From Balneola sp. (lineage in GTDB: Bacteria > Bacteroidota > Rhodothermia > Balneolales > Balneolaceae), in contig JANQSE010000002.1 in the NCBI GenBank assembly GCA_028284195.1, positions 248,001 to 312,000 on the forward strand: a stretch of 64,000 bases of DNA. Direction: 5' to 3'. The first letter of the stretch is position 1, and each line of letters opens with the position of its first letter. The position numbers and the translations under genes are program-made. The notes beneath the pieces are model-generated. The model ran no database searches. It was not told where the DNA came from and worked only from the letters and a program-made list of their open reading frames with translations. Below, one piece after another: positions 17,777-32,561 of the stretch.

Positions 17777-17810
17777 TTTGATCTCCTCTTGTTTTAAAAG
17801 TATCAATTTC
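17777..17810 (+). promoter_or_regulatory. Candidate promoter of the arginine operon
   Basis: TTTG at 17777-17780, a 20-nt spacer, then TATCAATTT at 17801-17809. The pattern approximates the Bacteroidota TTTG-N19/21-TAnnTTTG consensus, but the -7 element is imperfect. A start point near 17812-17816 would put the leader-peptide ATG about 10 nt inside the transcript. Confidence 0.3.
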
Positions 17811-17822
17811 TCATTTTCTGGC

Positions 17823-17885
17823 ATGCAAAAATCTCTTGCACATAGAATTGAACGAACTGTTCGGCGCATCCGGCGGCGGCGGTAA
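17823..17885 (+). CDS. Arginine-rich leader peptide (candidate attenuator of the arginine operon)
   Basis: A 20-codon ORF, ATG at 17823 and TAA at 17883-17885, reads MQKSLAHRI followed by ERTVRRIRRRR. Eight of the 20 residues are Arg, and six of the last seven codons are CGG or CGC. It sits 87 nt upstream of the first gene of an eight-gene arginine biosynthesis operon. An Arg-run before the stop is what a ribosome-stalling sensor of charged tRNA-Arg needs. The five CGG codons may be decoded by a minor tRNA, which would sharpen the response. No protein function is expected from the peptide itself. The downstream RNA pairings are listed separately. Confidence 0.72.
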   Translation: MQKSLAHRIERTVRRIRRRR

Positions 17886-17966
17886 GCTATATATTTTGGT
17901 TGCTGGCTAAGCAACTCCCGTCCTTAATCACTCAATTCTAACCACCCTTCGGGGATTTCTCTTTTT
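17843..17966 (+). promoter_or_regulatory. Possible attenuator RNA of the arginine operon
   Basis: TAGAATTGA (17843-17851, inside the leader ORF) is perfectly complementary to TCAATTCTA (17932-17940). A local hairpin GTTGCT/AGCAAC occupies 17899-17915. An alternative pairing TGGTTG (17897-17902) with TAACCA (17939-17944) competes with both. A small CCC-TTCG-GGG hairpin (17945-17954) followed by ATTTCTCTTTTT (17955-17966) could be the terminator, but its stem has only 3 bp, so the termination step is the weakest part of the model. Confidence 0.45.
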
Positions 17967-17972
17967 AACATT

Positions 17973-18548
17973 ATGACAATTTCAATCCTTTTTGGTACAA
18001 AAAACCACAGTACTTACGCAGAAGAAATCTGTTCACTTATCGAACATGCTGCAAAACAAAGGGGTACTGGTATTGCAAAAAGAAAGCCTTCTTATATAAA
18101 AACCAAGTTCGAAAATGAGAATGCTGTTATTGCTTTAGATGGAGATCAGTTAGTAGGGTTCTGTTATGTCGAGGTTTGGGAAGACAAAAAATATGTGGCC
18201 AATTCTGGCTTAATAGTTCATCCTGATTACAGGGGACAGGGGCTTGCAAAAAAGATAAAAGCGAAAGCATTTGAACTTTCCAGAGAAAAATACCCCGGTT
18301 CAAAACTATTTGGAATTACTACCAGCCTCCCGGTAATGAAGATCAATTCGGAACTGGGTTATAAACCGGTCACATTCTCAGAATTAACTCAGGACGAAAC
18401 ATTCTGGAATGGTTGCAAGAGTTGCCCGAACTATGACATTCTTACCCGAAATAACCGAACAAATTGTTTATGTACAGGAATGCTGTTTGATCCAAACCGT
18501 CCAAATGATAAAACAAAAGAAGAAAAGGAAATTGTTGATCATGAATAA
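17973..18548 (+). CDS. GNAT acetyltransferase, candidate N-acetylglutamate synthase of the arginine operon
   Basis: 191 residues. The GNAT core is visible: VGFCYVEVWEDKKYVANSGLIVHPDYRGQGLAKKIKAKAF, with the acetyl-CoA pyrophosphate loop RGQGLA at 87-92. After the GNAT fold come four cysteines in CX2C (148, 151) and CXC (165, 167), which could bind zinc or form a redox or feedback site. It is the first gene of the operon and overlaps argG by 8 nt. No classical ArgA or ArgJ is present in the window although all other steps are, so it probably acetylates glutamate. The assignment is by context. Confidence 0.72.
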   Translation: MTISILFGTKNHSTYAEEICSLIEHAAKQRGTGIAKRKPSYIKTKFENENAVIALDGDQLVGFCYVEVWEDKKYVANSGLIVHPDYRGQGLAKKIKAKAFELSREKYPGSKLFGITTSLPVMKINSELGYKPVTFSELTQDETFWNGCKSCPNYDILTRNNRTNCLCTGMLFDPNRPNDKTKEEKEIVDHE

Positions 18549-19737
18549 AAATAAAAAAGTTGTACTCGCATTTAGTGGCGGATTGGATACTAGCTACTGC
18601 GCTATTTATCTGGCAAAGGAAAAGGAGTATAAAGTGTATACCGCTGCAGTAAATACGGGAGGATTTGATGAAACCGAACAAGAAGAACTTGCACAAAAGG
18701 CCAAAGAGCTTGGAATAGAGAGCCATATTTGTATTGATGTTGAAAAAGAGTTTTATGAGAAAGGGATCAAATACCTGCTTTTCGGGAACGTATTAAAAAA
18801 TCATACGTATCCACTTTCTGTAAGTGCAGAAAGAGTTTTTCAGGCAGTAGCTATAGCTGAATATGCCAAAGAAATTGGTGCGGATGCTATTGCACATGGG
18901 AGCACCGGAGCTGGAAATGATCAGGTTCGTTTCGATCTCATTTTTAATGTGCTTGTTCCTGAAATGGAGATCATAACGCCAATCAGAGATATGAAGCTGA
19001 GCAGAGAAGAGGAAGTGGAATTTCTTAAAAATCATGGAGTAGAAAAAGAATGGGCCAAAGCTAAGTACTCCATCAACAAAGGATTGTGGGGGACCAGTGT
19101 TGGAGGAGCTGAAACATTAACTTCTCACCAAGCATTACCAGACGAAGCATGGCCAACAAGTTTAGTTAATGGCGATGAATTAATAGTTGAAATAGGTTTT
19201 GAAAACGGGGAGCCAATTTCAATCGATGGAAAGAAAAGTGATTCTGTTTCAATAATAAAACGACTAACAGAAATAGCAACTCCTTATGGAATTGGAAGAG
19301 ATATCCATGTGGGTGATACTATTATCGGAATAAAAGGCCGTGTTGGTTTTGAGGCAGCTGCACCGCTTATTTTGATAAAAGCACATCAGTTATTAGAAAA
19401 GCATGTGCTTGGGAAATGGCAGATATACTGGAAAGATCAATTAGGAGAATGGTACGGGATGTTGATGCACGAAGGGCAATACCTGGATCCGGTAATGAGA
19501 GATATTGAAGTATTTCTGGAGAATACACAGCAAAAAGTCACAGGAAAAGTAATAGTAAAGCTGGAACCTAAAAGATTCGAGCTCATTGGCATTGAATCAG
19601 ACTACGATCTCATGCAATCAGGCCACGGGCAGTATGGAGAAATGAATCAAAGCTGGAGTGGTGAAGATGTAAAGGGCTTCACAAAGATTTTTGCTAATTC
19701 AACACTCATTCAACAATCGGTACAGAACAATGATTAG
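18541..19737 (+). CDS. argG: Argininosuccinate synthase
   Basis: 398 residues from the ATG at 18541, chosen over upstream in-frame starts because the protein then begins MNKNKKVVLAFSGGLDTSYC, with the N-type ATP pyrophosphatase P-loop SGGLDTS at the normal place. It joins citrulline and aspartate with ATP. HGSTGAGNDQVRF and the YSINKGLWG stretch are conserved substrate-site segments. The start overlaps the GNAT gene by 8 nt and the end overlaps argC by 8 nt. Confidence 0.95.
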   Translation: MNKNKKVVLAFSGGLDTSYCAIYLAKEKEYKVYTAAVNTGGFDETEQEELAQKAKELGIESHICIDVEKEFYEKGIKYLLFGNVLKNHTYPLSVSAERVFQAVAIAEYAKEIGADAIAHGSTGAGNDQVRFDLIFNVLVPEMEIITPIRDMKLSREEEVEFLKNHGVEKEWAKAKYSINKGLWGTSVGGAETLTSHQALPDEAWPTSLVNGDELIVEIGFENGEPISIDGKKSDSVSIIKRLTEIATPYGIGRDIHVGDTIIGIKGRVGFEAAAPLILIKAHQLLEKHVLGKWQIYWKDQLGEWYGMLMHEGQYLDPVMRDIEVFLENTQQKVTGKVIVKLEPKRFELIGIESDYDLMQSGHGQYGEMNQSWSGEDVKGFTKIFANSTLIQQSVQNND

Positions 19738-20695
19738 AGTAGGAATAATTGGTGGAGCCGGATACACGGCAGGAGAATTAATCAGAATTCTGGTTAATCA
19801 TTCTGAAGCAGAAGTTGCTACAGTATTGAGTACAAGTCATGCAGGAAAGAAGCTGATTGAAGCTCATCCCGATTTGATAGGAGAAAAAGAAATGGTATTT
19901 GAAGCTGAGCTTAGCGAAGAAGTAGATATCCTGTTTCTTTGCTCAGGCCATGGAAAGTCTAAACCCTTTTTAGATGAGAATAAGGTTTCTGATAAAACTA
20001 AGATTATTGATCTGAGCAATGACTTCAGGTTAAAAGAAAGCGGACAGAGTTTTGTTTATGGATTGCCGGAATTGAACAGAGATGAAATTTCCAGTGCATC
20101 AAAAATTGCAAACCCAGGATGTTTCGCAACATGCATTCAGTTATGCCTGCTTCCTCTGGCAAAGCATAATTGCATGAAAGAAGATATTCATGTTTCAGCG
20201 ATAACCGGAAGTACAGGTGCCGGGCAAAGCTTGTCAGAAACCACTCACTTTAGCTGGAGAAGCAATAATGCTTCGATGTATAAAGCATTTACTCACCAGC
20301 ATCTGGGAGAGATCAATCAAAGCATTAACCAGTTACAACCTGGTTTCAAAAACTCCATTCATTTCATTCCGTTCAGAGGGGCATTTACCAGAGGAATTTT
20401 AGCAGCTTGTTATTTGAAATCAGATTTGGACGTGGGAGAAGCACAGCAGTTATTCAGGGAATTTTATCGCCCGCATCTTTTCGTTCAACTATCTGAAAAC
20501 CCGGTGGATGTAAAGCAGGTGGTAAACACCAATAAGGCAATTCTTCATCTTCAGAAAGAAGGAGATCAGTTGCTGATAACCGGAGTGATCGATAATCTGA
20601 TAAAAGGAGCATCCGGTCAGGCGATACAAAATATGAATCTATTGTTTGGGCTGGATGAAAGCACCGGGCTAAACCTGAAAGGAGGAGTCTTCTGA
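19730..20695 (+). CDS. argC: N-acetyl-gamma-glutamyl-phosphate reductase
   Basis: 321 residues from the ATG at 19730. MIRVGIIGGAGYTAGELIRIL is the Rossmann NADP-binding start, so upstream in-frame TTG codons are rejected. The catalytic cysteine lies in NPGCFATCI. It reduces N-acetylglutamyl phosphate to the semialdehyde. It overlaps argG by 8 nt and the argD ATG by 1 nt (TGATG). A strong purine-rich GGAGGAG precedes the argD start inside its 3' end. Confidence 0.94.
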   Translation: MIRVGIIGGAGYTAGELIRILVNHSEAEVATVLSTSHAGKKLIEAHPDLIGEKEMVFEAELSEEVDILFLCSGHGKSKPFLDENKVSDKTKIIDLSNDFRLKESGQSFVYGLPELNRDEISSASKIANPGCFATCIQLCLLPLAKHNCMKEDIHVSAITGSTGAGQSLSETTHFSWRSNNASMYKAFTHQHLGEINQSINQLQPGFKNSIHFIPFRGAFTRGILAACYLKSDLDVGEAQQLFREFYRPHLFVQLSENPVDVKQVVNTNKAILHLQKEGDQLLITGVIDNLIKGASGQAIQNMNLLFGLDESTGLNLKGGVF

Positions 20696-21822
20696 TGAAT
20701 CTATTCGAAGTGTACTCTTTGTTTGATATAGAGCCGGTTAGAGCTGAAGGCAATTATGTATTCACTCAAGATGGAACAAAGTATCTGGATATGTATGGAG
20801 GTCATGCTGTGATATCTATTGGCCATTCACACCCAGACTATAAAAATAGAATAACTAAACAGCTTAATAAAATTGGGTTCTACTCGAACTCTGTTCCGAT
20901 CGGAATTCAACAAGAAATGGCTGAAAAGTTAGGAGAGCTCTCTGGCTATCCTGACTGGAATTTATTTCTCTGTAATTCCGGAGCTGAAGCCAATGAAAAT
21001 GCGTTGAAAGTTGCATCTGCTTATAACCAAAGAAAGAAGGTTTTTGTTTTTGAGAAGGGTTTCCACGGCAGGACATCTCTTGCCGTAGCTGCTACAGATA
21101 ATCCAAAAATCCTGCTCCCGGTAAATGAAGGCGCCGAAATCATCAGATTACCACTTGAAGATTTTGATGGTGCAGAATCAGTTCTTTTACAGCAGGATGT
21201 TTGTTGTGTCCTGATCGAAGGAATTCAGGGAGTTGGAGGAATTAATATTCCGACCATTAATTTTTTGAGTCATTTGAGAAAATTATGCGATCAGACAAAT
21301 ACGGTTCTAATCCTTGATGAAATCCAGTCTGGTTTTGGGAGAACAGGAAAGTTCTTTGCACATCAACATTCAGAAGTAGTTCCGGATGTTATCACAATTG
21401 CCAAAGGGATGGGAAATGGCTTTCCGGTTGGTGGGGTAATGATTCACCCCAAATTTAAAGCTCAACCCGGAATGCTGGGCACTACGTTTGGAGGAAATCA
21501 TCTTGCTTGTTCAGCAGCTCTTGCGGTTTTGGAAATTATCGAAAAGGAATCACTGATCGAAAACGCTGATAAGATTGGTGCGTATCTGAAAGAGGAGTTG
21601 ATAAGTATTCCACAGGTAAAAGAAGTACGCGGCTTAGGTTTGATGATAGGAATAGAATTTGATTTTGAAATCGCAGATTTAAGAGATGAGCTTTTGTATT
21701 CACATCATGTTTTTACAGGTTCCTCTTCCAATAAGAAAGTTCTTCGGTTACTTCCTCCTCTTGGAATTAAGAAACATGAAGCAGATCAGTTTCTGAACGC
21801 ATTGAAGGAGGTATTATCATGA
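20695..21822 (+). CDS. argD: Acetylornithine aminotransferase
   Basis: 375 residues, a class III PLP aminotransferase. Visible sites are the N-terminal GGHAVISIGHSHP, the cofactor segment LCNSGAEANENALKVA, LILDEIQSGFGRTG and the PLP-lysine region TIAKGMGNGFPVGG. It makes N-acetylornithine from the semialdehyde and glutamate. It is placed between argC and argF' with 1-nt and 4-nt overlaps. Confidence 0.93.
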   Translation: MNLFEVYSLFDIEPVRAEGNYVFTQDGTKYLDMYGGHAVISIGHSHPDYKNRITKQLNKIGFYSNSVPIGIQQEMAEKLGELSGYPDWNLFLCNSGAEANENALKVASAYNQRKKVFVFEKGFHGRTSLAVAATDNPKILLPVNEGAEIIRLPLEDFDGAESVLLQQDVCCVLIEGIQGVGGINIPTINFLSHLRKLCDQTNTVLILDEIQSGFGRTGKFFAHQHSEVVPDVITIAKGMGNGFPVGGVMIHPKFKAQPGMLGTTFGGNHLACSAALAVLEIIEKESLIENADKIGAYLKEELISIPQVKEVRGLGLMIGIEFDFEIADLRDELLYSHHVFTGSSSNKKVLRLLPPLGIKKHEADQFLNALKEVLS

Positions 21823-22754
21823 AGCAGTTTTTTTCGATCGATGATGTATCAGACTTAAAGCAGCTGCTCGAAGAAGCTAAAGTTGTAAAAGAGAACCCGT
21901 TTGAGCTCAAGGGAAACATCAGGAACAAAAGTATTTGCTTACTTTTTTTGAACCCAAGCTTAAGAACAAGACTTAGCTCACAAAGAGCGGCTCAAAATCT
22001 GAGGGTGAATGTGACCATTTTTGATGTAGGCTCCGGAGGGTGGCAACTCGAATTTACTGACGGAGCTATAATGAATAGCGATAAAGCAGAACATGTAAAG
22101 GAAGCCGCCGCTGTAATTGGTACTTATTTCGATCTGATAGCAATCAGAGCTTTTGCAAAACTGGAAGACAAAGATTACCAGGAACAGGTTTTGAGTCAAT
22201 TCATGAAGCATTGTCCGGCTCCGGTAGTAAACTTAGAGTCTTCAACCAGGCATCCGTTACAGGCTTTTGCTGATCTGGTCACGATTGAAGCATATAAGAA
22301 AACCAAAAAACCGAAAGTGGTTTTGACATGGGCTCCGCATCCAAGAGCACTTCCTCAGGCGGTTGCGAATTCATTTTCTTTATGGACTCAAGCTGCCGGC
22401 TATGATCTGACTATTGCTCATCCGGAGGGATACGAATTGGCACCCGAATTTTCAGGGAATGCAAAGGTCGAATATGATCAAAGAAAAGCATTTGAAGAAG
22501 CGGATTTCATTTACGCAAAGAACTGGAGCAGTTACTCAAATTATGGGGAGATTCTTTGTAAGGATTCAAACTGGATGGTGAGTGAGGACAAAATGAAACT
22601 CACTAACAACGCAAAGTTTATGCATTGCCTGCCGGTTCGAAGAAATGTGGTTGTAAGTGATGCCGTGATCGACAGCAAAGACTCGCTGGTTGTTGAACAA
22701 GCAGAAAACAGAATTGTATCCGCTCAAACCATCTTTAAAAGATTATTGTCATGA
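21819..22754 (+). CDS. argF': N-acyl-L-ornithine carbamoyltransferase (ArgF' type)
   Basis: 311 residues. The carbamoyl-phosphate motif is FLNPSLRTRLS (44-53); note LRTR where ordinary ornithine transcarbamylases have STRT/SMRT. The domain continues with SSTRHPLQAFADLVT and HCLPVRRN. It is much closer to N-succinyl/N-acetyl-ornithine transcarbamylases (Bacteroides, Xanthomonas) than to ArgF. The residue that sets acyl specificity in those enzymes, Pro90 in Bacteroides and Glu92 in Xanthomonas, aligns with Ala90 here (DKAEH). The product would be N-acylcitrulline, deacylated by the M20 enzyme two genes on. ATGA overlaps occur on both sides. Confidence 0.9.
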   Translation: MKQFFSIDDVSDLKQLLEEAKVVKENPFELKGNIRNKSICLLFLNPSLRTRLSSQRAAQNLRVNVTIFDVGSGGWQLEFTDGAIMNSDKAEHVKEAAAVIGTYFDLIAIRAFAKLEDKDYQEQVLSQFMKHCPAPVVNLESSTRHPLQAFADLVTIEAYKKTKKPKVVLTWAPHPRALPQAVANSFSLWTQAAGYDLTIAHPEGYELAPEFSGNAKVEYDQRKAFEEADFIYAKNWSSYSNYGEILCKDSNWMVSEDKMKLTNNAKFMHCLPVRRNVVVSDAVIDSKDSLVVEQAENRIVSAQTIFKRLLS

Positions 22755-23515
22755 AGGAAGCAGTAAGAATCATAAAGATTGGTGGAAAAGTTATTGACGA
22801 TCAGGTAAAGCTGAATCAGTTTTTGAGTGATTTTGCAGAAATCGAAGGACCGAAGATACTGGTTCACGGTGGAGGGAAGATCGCATCACATGTAGCTTCA
22901 AAACTTGGTATCGAAACCAAAATGGTAGATGGAAGAAGGATAACAGATCCGGAAATGTTGGATGTGGTAGCTATGGTTTATGGCGGTCTGGTAAACAAGA
23001 GAATAGTTGCGAAGCTCCTGGCATTAGGGGTAAACGCATTGGGCTTATCGGGCACAGATTTAAATGTAATCTATTCTAAAAAACGAAACCCAAATCCGAC
23101 TGATTTCGGTTTGGTTGGAGATATTGAATCAGTGAATGGACCCGTGTTGATTGATTTATTAGCTAAAGGTATAACTCCGGTATTAGCGCCACTTACTCAT
23201 GACGGAAATGGTCAATTACTCAATACCAACGCTGATAACATTGCCGGATATGTTGCGATGGAGCTTGCAACCGAAGCTAAGTTGGAACTCGATTTTTGTT
23301 TTGACCTGGAAGGCGTGATGAATGAAGGTAAATTGATCACCCAAATGAACCTTCTTCTTTACCGTCACCTTAAAGGAGTCGGCGTTATCAAAGATGGGAT
23401 GATTCCTAAACTGGATTTGGGATTTCAAGCTTTGAAAGCGGGAGTGAAGTCAGTAAGAGTTGTAGGAAATGAGTTTGTAAAAGAAGCTCAAAAAGGAACG
23501 AGGTTAATAAAATGA
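22751..23515 (+). CDS. argB: Acetylglutamate kinase
   Basis: 254 residues, an amino-acid kinase fold. Visible motifs are IIKIGGKVIDD, ILVHGGGKIAS, VDGRRITDPEMLDVVAMVYGG (the acylglutamate-binding stretch), NTNADNIAG and MIPKLDLGFQAL. It phosphorylates the acylated glutamate. It has the short N-terminus of arginine-insensitive forms, lacking the extra N-terminal helix of feedback-inhibited hexameric enzymes, which agrees with control at transcription or at the first enzyme. Overlaps of 4 nt occur with both neighbours. Confidence 0.93.
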   Translation: MKEAVRIIKIGGKVIDDQVKLNQFLSDFAEIEGPKILVHGGGKIASHVASKLGIETKMVDGRRITDPEMLDVVAMVYGGLVNKRIVAKLLALGVNALGLSGTDLNVIYSKKRNPNPTDFGLVGDIESVNGPVLIDLLAKGITPVLAPLTHDGNGQLLNTNADNIAGYVAMELATEAKLELDFCFDLEGVMNEGKLITQMNLLLYRHLKGVGVIKDGMIPKLDLGFQALKAGVKSVRVVGNEFVKEAQKGTRLIK

Positions 23516-24579
23516 TCGATCCTGATTTATCAAATAAAGCAATTGCTCTATTACAGAAGCTTATCTCCGTGCAGTCCTATAGTGGAGAAGAAGCTAAAAC
23601 TGCAGATTTAATCGAAGATTATTTAAAAGAACATGGCTTTTCTCCACAACGGAAGAAAAATAATGTGTGGGCCCAGGCATCAGAAAAAGATGCTGGTAAG
23701 CCAACATTATTATTAAACTCTCACCATGATACCGTGAAGGCGACTTCGAAATGGACGCTTGATCCGTTTACTCCAACCATTGATAACGGAAAATTATTTG
23801 GTCTGGGAAGCAATGACGCTGGAGGACCGCTAGTGAGTCTGATACATACGTTTATTCATCTTGCCAAAACAGAGCAACCATATAATCTGATTTTTCTGGC
23901 ATCAGCGGAAGAAGAAACGTCCGGAAAACAAGGGGTACCAATTGTACTAAACGATTTGGGAAAGGTTGATCTTGGAGTGATTGGCGAGCCAACATCAATG
24001 AACATGGCTATAGCCGAGCGAGGTTTAATCGTTCTTGATTGCGTAGCTCACGGAAAAAGTGGTCATGCTGCACGCGGAGAAGGAGAGAATGCTTTATACA
24101 AAGCGATTAAAGACATTGAATGGTTTAAAGGGTATGAGTTTGAAAAGCAGTCGGCAGTGTTGGGGAAAGTAAATATGACGGTTACACAAATTGAATCAGG
24201 TTCACAGCATAATATAGTGCCGGATGAATGCAGGTTCGTTGTAGATGTTCGTCCGAATGAACATTACTCAAATCAGGAAATTCTGGACGAGATCAAAAAA
24301 AATGTGGACTGTGAAGTGATCCCAAGATCGCTGAACCTGAATGCTTCAGGTATTTCGGAAAAACATTCGATTGTTCGGAAAGGGAGGCAAATAGGAATGA
24401 AAACTTATGGCTCTCAGACGATGTCAGATCAGGTTCACATGCCTTTCCCTTGTATCAAAATGGGACCTGGAGATACTCATCGTTCTCATACTGCCGATGA
24501 GTTTATTTATCTGTACGAAATAAAAGATGGAATAAAATTATATATCGAATTATTAAATGGATTAGAGATTAATGGCTAA
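23512..24579 (+). CDS. M20-family deacylase (ArgE/DapE-like), candidate N-acetylcitrulline deacetylase
   Basis: 355 residues. The metal-site motifs are NSHHDTV (His/Asp), GSNDAGGPL, SAEEETSG (catalytic Glu and metal Glu), GEPTS and the late GDTHRSHTADEF. Members of this family act as acetylornithine or acetylcitrulline deacetylase or as succinyl-diaminopimelate desuccinylase. Position between argB and argH and the presence of ArgF' argue for removing the acyl group from N-acetylcitrulline. It overlaps argB by 4 nt and argH by 8 nt. Confidence 0.85.
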   Translation: MIDPDLSNKAIALLQKLISVQSYSGEEAKTADLIEDYLKEHGFSPQRKKNNVWAQASEKDAGKPTLLLNSHHDTVKATSKWTLDPFTPTIDNGKLFGLGSNDAGGPLVSLIHTFIHLAKTEQPYNLIFLASAEEETSGKQGVPIVLNDLGKVDLGVIGEPTSMNMAIAERGLIVLDCVAHGKSGHAARGEGENALYKAIKDIEWFKGYEFEKQSAVLGKVNMTVTQIESGSQHNIVPDECRFVVDVRPNEHYSNQEILDEIKKNVDCEVIPRSLNLNASGISEKHSIVRKGRQIGMKTYGSQTMSDQVHMPFPCIKMGPGDTHRSHTADEFIYLYEIKDGIKLYIELLNGLEING

Positions 24580-25873
24580 GAAACTGTGGGAAAAAGGAAT
24601 AGAAATGGATGCTCTTATCGAGCAGTTTACTGTTGGAAAAGACAAAGAACTGGATGTAGAGCTTGCTTCGTATGATATACAAGGCACAAAAGCACATATC
24701 ATCATGTTGGAATCAGTTGGCTTACTGGAAAAGTCGGAATTAGATGAACTGATTGTAGAACTGGATAAAATACAATCAGAAATAATAGATACCGGAAAAT
24801 TTGAAATTGAGGAAGGGGTAGAAGATGTTCATTCCCAAATCGAATTGATGCTTACCAGATCGCTGGGTGAAGTAGGTAAGAAAATTCATTCCGGGAGATC
24901 CAGGAACGACCAGGTTTTGGTAGATATTCGTTTGTATCTGAGAGATGAACTGAAACAAATAAAACTACTTGTAAAGAGTTTGTTCGATGTGTTGATTCAG
25001 CAGGCGGAAGCGCATAAAGAGATATTGATGCCAGGCTATACGCACACTCAGGCTGCCATGCCCAGTAGTTTTGGGTTATGGTTCGGAGCATATGCAGAAA
25101 GCCTGATTGATGATATTGAAATACTGAACGGAGCATACAAAGTAGTGAACAGAAATCCTTTGGGGTCTGCGGCAGGCTATGGATCCAGCTTCCCGTTAAA
25201 CCGACAAATGACTACAGAGCTTCTGGGTTTTGAAGGCATGGTTTACAATTCAGTATATGCTCAGATGGGAAGAGGGAAGACAGAACAAGTCGTGTCTTCT
25301 GCAATAGCGAATTTAGCTCTCACACTCAACAAGCTGTCTTCTGATATTTGTTTATATAATAGTCAGAATTTTCAGCTCCTGAAACTACCGGATGAACTCA
25401 CTACCGGTTCAAGTATTATGCCACATAAAAAGAATCCGGATGTGTTTGAATTACTTCGTGCAAAAACAAACTCGTTAATGTCGTTACCAAACCAGGTTAT
25501 GATGATGCTTGGCAGTCTAACTTCCGGTTACCACAGGGATTTTCAATTACTGAAAGAACTATTATTTCCTGCAATCAAAGAACTAAAAAGCTGCCTGAGA
25601 ATAACCGAATATGCAGTAGCCAGAATTGAACCTGTTGAAGACATTTTGAACGATCCCAAATACAAGCTGATATTTTCGGTAGAAGCAGTTAATGAATTGG
25701 TGGTTCAGGGAATTCCATTTCGGGAAGCCTACCAACAAGTTGCAAAACAAATTGAAGAAGGAAGTTTTGAACCTTCAACAAAACTCAATCATACCCATGA
25801 GGGAAGTATTGGCAATTTGATGTTGAAAGAGCTTAAAGAACAGATGGATGATTTGATGACGTTAAGAATTTGA
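24572..25873 (+). CDS. argH: Argininosuccinate lyase
   Basis: 433 residues of the fumarase/aspartase superfamily. Signature GSSIMPHKKNPDVFELLRAK carries the mobile catalytic loop, HSGRSRNDQVLVD is the substrate-binding region, and GYTHTQAAMPSSFG holds the catalytic His/Thr. It splits argininosuccinate into arginine and fumarate and completes the pathway. It is the last gene of the overlapping series; no clear terminator follows, only a palindromic repeat from 25906. Confidence 0.95.
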   Translation: MAKKLWEKGIEMDALIEQFTVGKDKELDVELASYDIQGTKAHIIMLESVGLLEKSELDELIVELDKIQSEIIDTGKFEIEEGVEDVHSQIELMLTRSLGEVGKKIHSGRSRNDQVLVDIRLYLRDELKQIKLLVKSLFDVLIQQAEAHKEILMPGYTHTQAAMPSSFGLWFGAYAESLIDDIEILNGAYKVVNRNPLGSAAGYGSSFPLNRQMTTELLGFEGMVYNSVYAQMGRGKTEQVVSSAIANLALTLNKLSSDICLYNSQNFQLLKLPDELTTGSSIMPHKKNPDVFELLRAKTNSLMSLPNQVMMMLGSLTSGYHRDFQLLKELLFPAIKELKSCLRITEYAVARIEPVEDILNDPKYKLIFSVEAVNELVVQGIPFREAYQQVAKQIEEGSFEPSTKLNHTHEGSIGNLMLKELKEQMDDLMTLRI

Positions 25874-30103: not shown

Positions 30104-30105
30104 CG

Positions 30106-30191
30106 CCAACGGTTAGGGGTGTCCCGGCAGCAGCCGGGGCTGAGATTATACCCTTCTACCTGATCCGGTTAATACCGGCGGAGGGAAACCA
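30106..30191 (+). promoter_or_regulatory. TPP riboswitch (THI element)
   Basis: The conserved TPP-aptamer strings are all present in order: AGGGGTGTCC, GGGGCTGAGATTATACCC, ACCTGATCCGG, then AATACCGGCGGAGGGAA, with GGTT/AACC closing P1. It lies 80 nt upstream of a TonB-dependent receptor gene. A stem AACC-CGC/GCG-GGTT (30188-30215) followed by CTCCTCTTTTTT is a plausible expression-platform terminator, so TPP binding would shut off receptor synthesis. Confidence 0.95.
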
Positions 30192-30272
30192 GTTCGCTTA
30201 TCTATTTGCGCTCGGTTCACCTCCTCTTTTTTAAACCATAATTTTGTCGCAAGACTTTAAAAAGAGGAATAC

Positions 30273-32561
30273 ATGTTTAAAACAATTCAATTATCATTTA
30301 GTGCGGTTTGCTTTGTCATTTTATTGGCAGGTCCAACCCATGCACAGGTTACTGCAACGGGTAAAGTGCTCGATGCTGAAACCAAAGAACCCTTGGTTGG
30401 TGCCAGCGTTTTTATCAAAAACACTACCACAGGAACCAGCACCAATAAGGATGGAGAGTTCAGCCTTTCGCTTCCACAAAAAACAGGACTAATCACAGTT
30501 AGTTATGTGGGATACAATTCTGTTGATCTTCAGCCCTCAACCGATATGGTGGTGTATCTTACCCCTTCGGTTTCTTTAGAACAGATTATCATTAAAGTAG
30601 TTCGTGCGGATGAAGCAGAGCCTATAGCAAAGAGTACTATCCAAAGGGCAAAGCTTGAAGAAGTGTACAGAGGGGAGCATCCGGTATTTTTTCTGGAAGA
30701 GTTAACACCATCTATCTTTTCATTTTCAGAATCGGGAACAAAGCTGGCCAATTATGGAAGTATGAGACTTCGCGGGATCGGCCAGGAGCGCATCAATTTT
30801 ACACTGAATGGAATCCCGCTGAACGACATGATCGATCACGGAGTATTTTTCTCAAACTTTTCTGATATCGGAAACAGCTTCGAAAGTGTGCAGGTACAGC
30901 GTGGAGTAGGAACCAGCAGCAATGGAGCAGCTTCCTATGCTGGATCAATTAACTTTGAATCTGTAAACCTGGAAAAAAGAAAACAAGGTGGTGAAATCGG
31001 CTTGAGTGCTGGTTCTTTCCATACTTATCGCTTGAATGCTAATCTGTCAACAGGTATGATTGATAATAAATGGTCGTTCTTTGGGAATTACAGCAAGATT
31101 TATTCAGATGGATACCGCTATAACACATCAACCAATGCACATTCTTTTTTCTTTTCCGGAGGATATTTTGGGGAAAAAGACCTGATTAAGCTGAATGTAT
31201 TTGACGCCCGATCTAAGAATGGTTTAGGTTATTCAGCAGTAGCAAAAAGCGACTTGGATACAGATCCAAGAACTAATTATCTGAATGAGAATGATAAGGA
31301 TGATTTTGGTCAACGTTTGGTACAACTTCAACATACTCGCCGGTTCGATGAAAACCAGTCATTAACTACCTCTGCTTATTATGGTGGAGCATCGGGAGAT
31401 TTTCTGTTTACTTATGCAGATTCTGACACAACGTTTGCACAAATCAACTTTCCCCTGCGCAACGACCATTACGGATTAATAACCACCTATTTTTATGAAG
31501 CTGAAGACTGGAACGCGAGTATAGGAGCTCACGCTTATATCTTCGACCGAACTAATGAGGAATCAAATACTCCAAACTTTGCAAACCCCTATTACTTAGA
31601 AACTTCTTCTAAAAAAGAGCTGAGCTGGTTTGCTAAAACAGAATACTCTTTTGATAAGCTTACTGTTTTTAGCGAGGCTCAGGTTCGCATTGCGGCACTT
31701 TCCATCCAGCCGGATTATGGTTTTATAGGGATTGCTCCTGAAGGAGACATCGAAAAAAACTGGACGTTCATTAACCCAAAAATTGGTGTTAATTACAAGT
31801 TTGATAATCAATGGAGCGGCTATGCTTCGATTGGAAGAACAGGCCGTGAGCCAACTAAGATCGATATTTTCGGTGGCTTTAACCTTGGAGCTGCTAACTA
31901 TGCACAGGCACGGGCTAATACTTTTGATCCGGAGTATGTGAATGATTATGAGGCCGGGTTGAACTACCAGTCTCAAAAAGCTACAATTGGTGTGAATTTG
32001 TTTTACATGGATTTCCAGGATGAAATAGCTCCGATTGGTGAGGTGCTCGATTTTGGGGTTCAGAAAAGAGATAATATTTCCGACAGCTATCGTGCAGGAA
32101 TAGAATTAGACTGGAATACACTGCCCACAAATAAACTGGCTTATCAGGGTACGCTCACTTATATGAAGAGTGAGATTAATTCATTCACCGATGCAGACGG
32201 CAATACATTCCAGAATAAAACTCCGATCCTAAGCCCTCAATGGATCATCAATAATACTGTAAAAGTGTTCCCTACCGATGAGCTTACATTTTCTGTTTCC
32301 GGAAATTATGTAAGTGAATCGTTTTTGGAATTGAGTAATGATCCCAGTCTGGTGCTTCCATCTTATTTTGTAATGGACGCAGCTGTGAATTATGAAACTG
32401 CCCGGTTCCGGTTCCGGCTGGAGCTCAACAATATCGTTGATAATACCTATTACTCGAGCGGTACTCCTGTTGATGTAGATTTTGACGGCACCATTGATGA
32501 ACCCGGTTATTTCATTAATGCAGAAAGGAATGTGATGGGGACGTTGACAGTTAAGTTTTAA
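30273..32561 (+). CDS. TonB-dependent outer-membrane receptor, predicted thiamin/TPP uptake
   Basis: 762 residues. The signal peptide ends THAQ. A carboxypeptidase-regulatory-like beta-sandwich follows (VTATGKVLDAETKEPLVGASVFIKNTTTGTSTNKDGEFSL, about 26-100). The plug domain begins near IIIKVVRADEAEP and contains MRLRGIGQERINFTLNGIPLND. The 22-strand barrel runs to the terminal aromatic residue in MGTLTVKF. The substrate is inferred from the TPP riboswitch directly upstream, because the receptor sequence alone does not define it. No inner-membrane pnuT or thiamin kinase gene is next to it. Confidence 0.92.
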   Translation: MFKTIQLSFSAVCFVILLAGPTHAQVTATGKVLDAETKEPLVGASVFIKNTTTGTSTNKDGEFSLSLPQKTGLITVSYVGYNSVDLQPSTDMVVYLTPSVSLEQIIIKVVRADEAEPIAKSTIQRAKLEEVYRGEHPVFFLEELTPSIFSFSESGTKLANYGSMRLRGIGQERINFTLNGIPLNDMIDHGVFFSNFSDIGNSFESVQVQRGVGTSSNGAASYAGSINFESVNLEKRKQGGEIGLSAGSFHTYRLNANLSTGMIDNKWSFFGNYSKIYSDGYRYNTSTNAHSFFFSGGYFGEKDLIKLNVFDARSKNGLGYSAVAKSDLDTDPRTNYLNENDKDDFGQRLVQLQHTRRFDENQSLTTSAYYGGASGDFLFTYADSDTTFAQINFPLRNDHYGLITTYFYEAEDWNASIGAHAYIFDRTNEESNTPNFANPYYLETSSKKELSWFAKTEYSFDKLTVFSEAQVRIAALSIQPDYGFIGIAPEGDIEKNWTFINPKIGVNYKFDNQWSGYASIGRTGREPTKIDIFGGFNLGAANYAQARANTFDPEYVNDYEAGLNYQSQKATIGVNLFYMDFQDEIAPIGEVLDFGVQKRDNISDSYRAGIELDWNTLPTNKLAYQGTLTYMKSEINSFTDADGNTFQNKTPILSPQWIINNTVKVFPTDELTFSVSGNYVSESFLELSNDPSLVLPSYFVMDAAVNYETARFRFRLELNNIVDNTYYSSGTPVDVDFDGTIDEPGYFINAERNVMGTLTVKF

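Follow-up and report, generated by a model that had tools for sequence, protein, structure and literature searches.

A covarying long-range helix and a conserved arginine-rich leader ORF form a probable ribosome-mediated arginine sensor upstream of the arg operon in Balneolaceae

Our analysis points to a cis-acting, ribosome-mediated arginine sensor in front of the arginine operon of a Balneola sp. genome, in which a long-range helix, P1, would serve as the switch and which would replace the repressor ArgR; we consider this reading probable. As judged from sequence comparison, ribosome-mediated sensing of arginine is well supported, since the leader ORF is conserved, P1 and a second helix, P2, covary, ArgR is absent, and a histidine leader parallels the arginine leader, while classical attenuation of the trp/his type is partly supported. 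Leader-peptide attenuation has long been known, and arginine is the textbook amino acid pathway run by a repressor, ArgR, rather than by leader peptides. The DNA analyzed here, referred to as the window, is a stretch of 64,000 nucleotides (contig JANQSE010000002.1, positions 248,001 to 312,000); all coordinates given below are window positions.

The leader ORF (17823-17885, + strand; MQKSLAHRIERTVRRIRRRR, followed by the stop codon), taken from the list of open reading frames, comprises 20 codons, eight of which specify Arg (AGA, CGA, CGG, CGC, and four CGG), and its product ends in RRIRRRR-stop. Ranked among the 1,119 ATG-initiated ORFs of 8 to 45 codons on both strands of the window, it comes first in both Arg count and Arg fraction. 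An Arg control block, CGG CGC ATC CGG CGG CGG CGG, occupies 17862-17882 (+ strand), and 87 nt separate the end of the ORF from the first ATG of the operon at 17973. That operon is complete, with eight genes: a gene for a GNAT-family N-acetyltransferase, a candidate N-acetylglutamate synthase (17973-18548, + strand), is followed by argG, argC, argD, argF', argB, an argE/dapE-type deacylase gene, and argH (18541-25873, + strand). A first-pass annotation, made from the letters of the window, had described a 20-codon ORF with eight Arg codons at this distance from an eight-gene arginine operon, and every detail of that description holds. The argF' product scores above the NCBIfam cutoff for N-acetylornithine carbamoyltransferase, and arginine synthesis therefore follows the acetylornithine route. 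A search of a plasmid collection gave no match. Elsewhere in the window, a TPP riboswitch lies at 30105-30203, upstream of a gene at 30273.

Among the 92 genomes of the family, 42 carry argG, and after one fragment was set aside, 41 arg loci were examined. An Arg-rich ORF occupies the same place in 39 of these 41 Balneolaceae loci, across at least 10 genera. No such ORF was found in two reduced argG-bearing genomes of 1.5 to 1.8 Mb (G022 and G027), nor upstream of the arg operon in a genome from another family (G093). Homologous leader peptides such as MQKSLAHRIDRRSVRRIPRRR, MQIKSRNRISTSFLRRIPRRR, MQLSLAHRIDFIPVRPIPRRR, and MLISEVYRPISIPVNPVRPIYRRRR, as well as MKANGTHINTFSDSKTVAGISTFRFRVRRRALRAQQ from genus g7, drift freely at residues 3 to 6 and 10 to 14 and retain the Arg block ahead of the stop. 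The alignment of upstream regions in relatives that the first-pass annotation had suggested thus shows a drifting sequence, a kept Arg block, and covarying stems. A covariance model built from the ORF, P1, and P2 detects this element once, and only once, in each of 24 genomes, in every case at the arg operon, and gives no match in genomes lacking argG; the model was trained on 20 of these 24 loci and does not reach genera g5 and g7. No close argG was found in roughly half of the searched Balneolaceae genomes (family f1, genera g19 and g20, and others), and these organisms may be unable to synthesize arginine.

The helix that we propose as the switch connects the coding part of the leader with the region ahead of the first gene. 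Its 5' strand (TAGAATTGA, 17843-17851, + strand), which spans ORF codons 7 to 10, is fully complementary to its 3' strand (TCAATTCTA, 17932-17940, + strand), located 32 nt ahead of the first gene, and the perfect pairing noticed in the first reading is therefore real. P1 is found in register in 20 distinct homologues: its 5' strand occupies the same positions of the ORF and its 3' strand lies 30 to 66 nt before the gene, with strand pairs such as TAGGATC/GATCCTA, TAGAATC/GATTCTA, TAACATTGTTCG/CGAACAATGTTA, and TAGTATTGA/TCAATACT. In the fixed-register alignment, 88.3% of cells are paired versus 79.2 +- 1.3% after shuffling, a count that leans towards structure because each sequence's best helix was used to choose the register; independent tests, both per-sequence and non-cognate, agree with the register-based result. 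Covariation reaches 0.291 versus 0.123 +- 0.019 in shuffles, a value attained by none of 500 shuffles, and slid registers leave only 17 to 43% of cells paired. Several of the compensatory changes are synonymous for the peptide, for example AGA ATT to AGG ATC. A P1-type helix is formed from another ORF position (nt 13 to 20) in genus g5. Genus g4 has a further pairing, between GGCGGTA in the Arg block and TACCGC.

The second covarying element, the P2 hairpin (17898-17916, + strand), begins, with few exceptions among the homologues, about 12 to 16 nt 3' of the leader stop and hence just past a ribosome positioned at that stop. Here, 90.8% of cells are paired, and all six pairs show compensatory changes. 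When the ORF is covered in folding, the 3' strand of P1 is largely left unpaired, and the remaining structure consists of P2 and a weak downstream hairpin, P3, only; P1 formation depends on a ribosome-free ORF, and folding of the homologues reveals no conserved alternative partner for the 3' strand of P1. A different pairing, between 17897-17902 and 17939-17944, had been put forward as a competitor of P1. It does exist, as five Watson-Crick pairs and one G-U pair, in the window sequence only, but it is not conserved (cognate score of 6.5 versus 6.6 +- 1.7 for non-cognate combinations, 24 homologues) and also clashes with the conserved P2, and we reject it as a conserved antiterminator.

Upstream of the leader ORF lies a promoter-like element of the Bacteroidota type (17789-17818, + strand), consisting of TTG at 17789-17791, a 19-nt spacer, and the -7-like sequence TCATTTTC at 17811-17818. 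In 26 homologues, TTGnnTTTAAA and TACTTT-like boxes keep an almost fixed spacing to the leader ATG, the TTG about 34 to 36 nt and the TACTTT-like box about 12 nt upstream of it. For the -7 box of Bacteroidota promoters, one study gives the consensus TAnnTTTG (PMC9723704). Given boxes of this type at a near-fixed distance, the transcript is predicted to start at the ATG or within a few nucleotides of it, which suggests that the leader ORF is leaderless or nearly so.

Considering these elements together, we propose a model for arginine sensing by the leader. Transcription would start at the leader ATG or immediately beside it, and ribosomes would load on a leaderless or nearly leaderless ORF. 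With ample Arg-tRNA, ribosomes would pass the Arg block, terminate, and depart, and in the ribosome-free leader P1 would close around P2, keeping operon expression low. With scarce Arg-tRNA, ribosomes would instead stall at the Arg codons, form a queue there, and cover the 5' half of the ORF, which would keep P1 from closing and allow the operon to be expressed. In this scenario, the switch would stand in for ArgR. In genus g11, the sole Arg codons of the leader ORF are located downstream of P1; blocking of P1 would therefore require a queued second ribosome there.

A search with Arg_repressor_C detected no ArgR in any of 98 genomes, comprising the Balneola genome and its relatives, and was positive for 8 of 14 control genomes. 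Across 392 Bacteroidota genomes, 169 carry the GNAT gene and 125 carry ArgR, and only six carry both (G160, with a degenerate ArgR match containing a stop codon, and G326, G333, G419, G422, and G449), an overlap that was counted by hand from two lists and represents a clade-level pattern rather than independent events. ArgR and the GNAT-first arg operon are thus almost mutually exclusive in this phylum. In other families, the region ahead of the GNAT gene was examined at 44 loci, and 13 of them have an ORF whose final 12 codons include four or more Arg, compared with 1.2 (at most 4) expected from shuffling, and Arg leaders therefore extend past Balneolaceae. A broader hypothesis, which we regard as tentative and rather doubtful, is that a phylum-wide class of leaderless Arg leaders replaces ArgR in those Bacteroidota families that lack it, that in Balneolaceae the ribosome senses a single isoacceptor, tRNA-Arg(UCG), through CGG/CGA codons, and that the operon is controlled through Rho or translation with no intrinsic terminator. 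In family f29, eight loci (L125, L127, L170 to L173, L175, and L199) show a conserved hairpin of the GAACTnAGGTGAGTCCAGTTC kind upstream of the GNAT-arg operon, immediately preceded by a stretch rich in Arg around CGTCGCCC...GGG. Its loop, AGGTGWGTCC, is nearly invariant, and its stem varies in sequence and remains paired; it has no Rfam match and may represent an RNA element of arginine operons that has not been described before.

The arginine leader has a counterpart in the same genome. About 150 nt upstream of hisG (L122; contig C12, minus strand), a leader ORF encoding MKGTQSHTIHLFRNAHHLHHGHHHVQ, with nine His, runs GTG AAA GGA ... TAA, a frame read by eye, and a perfect box, TATCTTTG, lies 4 nt upstream of its GTG. 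His-rich leaders recur in many Balneolaceae relatives; counting the arginine leader, this lineage therefore has two or more leader peptides of this style. Together with the kept Arg block and P1, the single copy per genome at arg operons only, and the absence of ArgR, this parallel lends strong support to the earlier reading that the leader senses charged tRNA-Arg.

How such a sensor would act on the operon is best discussed together with the classical trp/his-type attenuator, in which a stall at the Arg codons would favor an antiterminator and P3 (CCC-UUCG-GGG and ATTTCTCTTTTT) would otherwise terminate transcription. The C(UUCG)G-capped hairpin described in the first-pass annotation was indeed found as CCC(UUCG)GGG at 17945-17954 (+ strand), it precedes a T-rich stretch in the window, and most genera have a weak hairpin at this position. 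However, P3 has a stability of only -1 to -6 kcal/mol, is missing in genera g5 and g11, lacks a following U-tract in most homologues, and is not recognizable as a terminator. Scans for intrinsic terminators on the + strand of the window leader were empty, even though strong U-tract terminators are present elsewhere in the window, and the competing pairing that would have provided the antiterminator is not conserved. A hairpin with at least four T in the next 8 nt occurs in 6 of 24 homologues, in five of the six as P2 followed by CTCATCTT. We therefore consider the classical attenuator improbable and intrinsic termination an unlikely output, and since an intrinsic terminator was searched for and none was detected, we do not place the leader in the terminator-bearing class. 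The terminator hairpin proposed at the outset is thus not borne out, and the accompanying caution, which allowed for a translational or Rho-dependent last step, was well placed, as neither the window leader nor most relatives show an intrinsic terminator.

For the ribosome-mediated sensor with P1 as its switch, the more likely output is either termination by Rho or reduced translation of the first gene, and altered mRNA stability may be a further one. Simple occlusion of the first start codon, as in rbfL, is not supported, because the predicted accessibility of the start region stays the same when a ribosome footprint is placed on the Arg codons or on the stop (means of 0.70, 0.70, and 0.71 in 25 sequences); the ORF is also 87 nt away. 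Downstream of P2, a C-rich, G-poor, mostly unpaired stretch (17917-17972, + strand) is a candidate Rho loading site or unstructured initiation region. From stop to gene, all 35 leaders are C-rich and G-poor (1011 C and 442 G; C:G, 2.3:1), yet the bias is not extreme within the window, where 7% of equivalent segments attain the value of 17886-17972, and it fits any unstructured leader; we do not accept it as proof of Rho. The motif CTCACTC shows no enrichment ahead of start codons in the window. In five genomes of genus g7 (L047, L049, L084, L086, and L087), the sequence GTACGGC in the Arg block could form pairs with GCCGTACG, which overlaps the first start codon, possibly as a translational variant of the same switch. 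This start-codon pairing was set aside, as folding with a blocked footprint does not favor its opening and not all of g7 has it.

An alternative to sensing charged tRNA is nascent-peptide arrest, known from SpeFL and the fungal AAP, which do not respond to a shortage of charged tRNA. Here, the C terminus RRIPRRR-stop would bind free arginine or stall the ribosome by its sequence, in keeping with the IPRRR-stop that the peptide alignment shows to be common to many genera. However, leader C termini also read RRRQ, RRRYS, RRQRMG, and YRRRR, and some genera have unrelated peptides bearing Arg runs. Moreover, a peptide sensor would have no need for the observed codon choice: the last four leader codons of the homologues include 75 Arg codons, all of them CGG (66) or CGA (9), versus a share of 28% for CGG plus CGA among the Arg codons of the window. 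On these grounds, we regard arrest by the peptide as unlikely. With 31 of 32 tRNA places typed, the tRNA-Arg anticodons of the Balneola genome are TCT, ACG, CCT, and TCG, and CCG was not found; CGG and CGA are therefore probably both decoded by a single tRNA-Arg(UCG). The restriction to these two codons may reflect isoacceptor sensing, a constraint on the RNA, or shared ancestry. As a claim about codon frequency, the earlier guess that CGG is a slow codon fails, since CGG is not rare, making up 15% of the Arg codons in the window.

It is also conceivable that a structured 5' RNA, riboswitch-like or protein bound, is under selection for P1, P2, and the GGCGG-CCGC pairing and that the ORF is incidental. 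The covariation of P1 and P2 and the GGCGGTA/TACCGC pairing in g4 would be expected in this case, but the ORF stays open and keeps Arg clusters in lineages whose RNA sequences differ, and the histidine counterpart bears His codons in their place. In addition, Rfam scans of the window and the homologues return nothing in the leader, with no match to a T-box or other riboswitch, and no large invariant ligand-binding core is seen, making this explanation very improbable. Finally, a functionless, chance Arg-rich ORF, for which its short length alone speaks, is refuted by the comparative data, as the ORF is conserved in 10 or more genera, the helices covary, and the element is specific to a single locus; its probability is negligible.

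If a ribosome-mediated sensor operates here as we propose, a group of bacteria that lacks ArgR appears to use ribosome sensing to run a whole arginine operon, and this offers an account of how ArgR-less Bacteroidota may control arginine synthesis. With seemingly no 5' untranslated region and no classical terminator, the leader would be a compact leader-peptide system in bacteria that generally lack Shine-Dalgarno signals. Like the his, trp, and leu attenuators of Enterobacteria (Rfam His_leader, Trp_leader, and Leu_leader), it combines a short ORF carrying a run of cognate codons with long-range pairing between ORF and leader. Unlike them, it concerns arginine, has an apparently leaderless ORF, no intrinsic terminator found, and no Rfam match, and uses as its pairing strand codons 7 to 10, ahead of the control codons. 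The trpL leader ORF of S. meliloti begins at the 5' end of the transcript, as the present ORF is predicted to do, and differs in responding to Trp and in having a proper terminator. Within the same phylum, leader-peptide attenuation was suggested for amino acid operons of Flavobacterium psychrophilum with short peptides before them, the accessible text naming no arginine operon (PMC9723704). Arg codons in a leader ORF are shared with the Salmonella ORF34/speFL leader of speF, where they alter RNA folding in response to arginine and Rho is involved; that 516-nt leader, with its HIRRT*HIMM-type conserved core, controls ornithine decarboxylase (PMC6386406). Both the peptide core and the downstream gene differ here, and with no ORF34 core and no speF downstream, an arrest leader of this kind was rejected. 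In Staphylococcus aureus, Arg codons in rbfL, an eight-residue ORF, sense arginine restriction and repress rbf on starvation (PMC13009471). The rbfL ORF overlaps the downstream ribosome binding site (PMC13009471), unlike the present ORF and gene, which lie apart. Searching the open-access literature, we came across no previous description of an Arg leader located upstream of an operon for arginine biosynthesis. The Arg-codon leaders known for speF and rbf do not belong to arginine biosynthetic operons, and the leader described here would, from its sequence features, work on such an operon in the manner of a leader-peptide attenuator.
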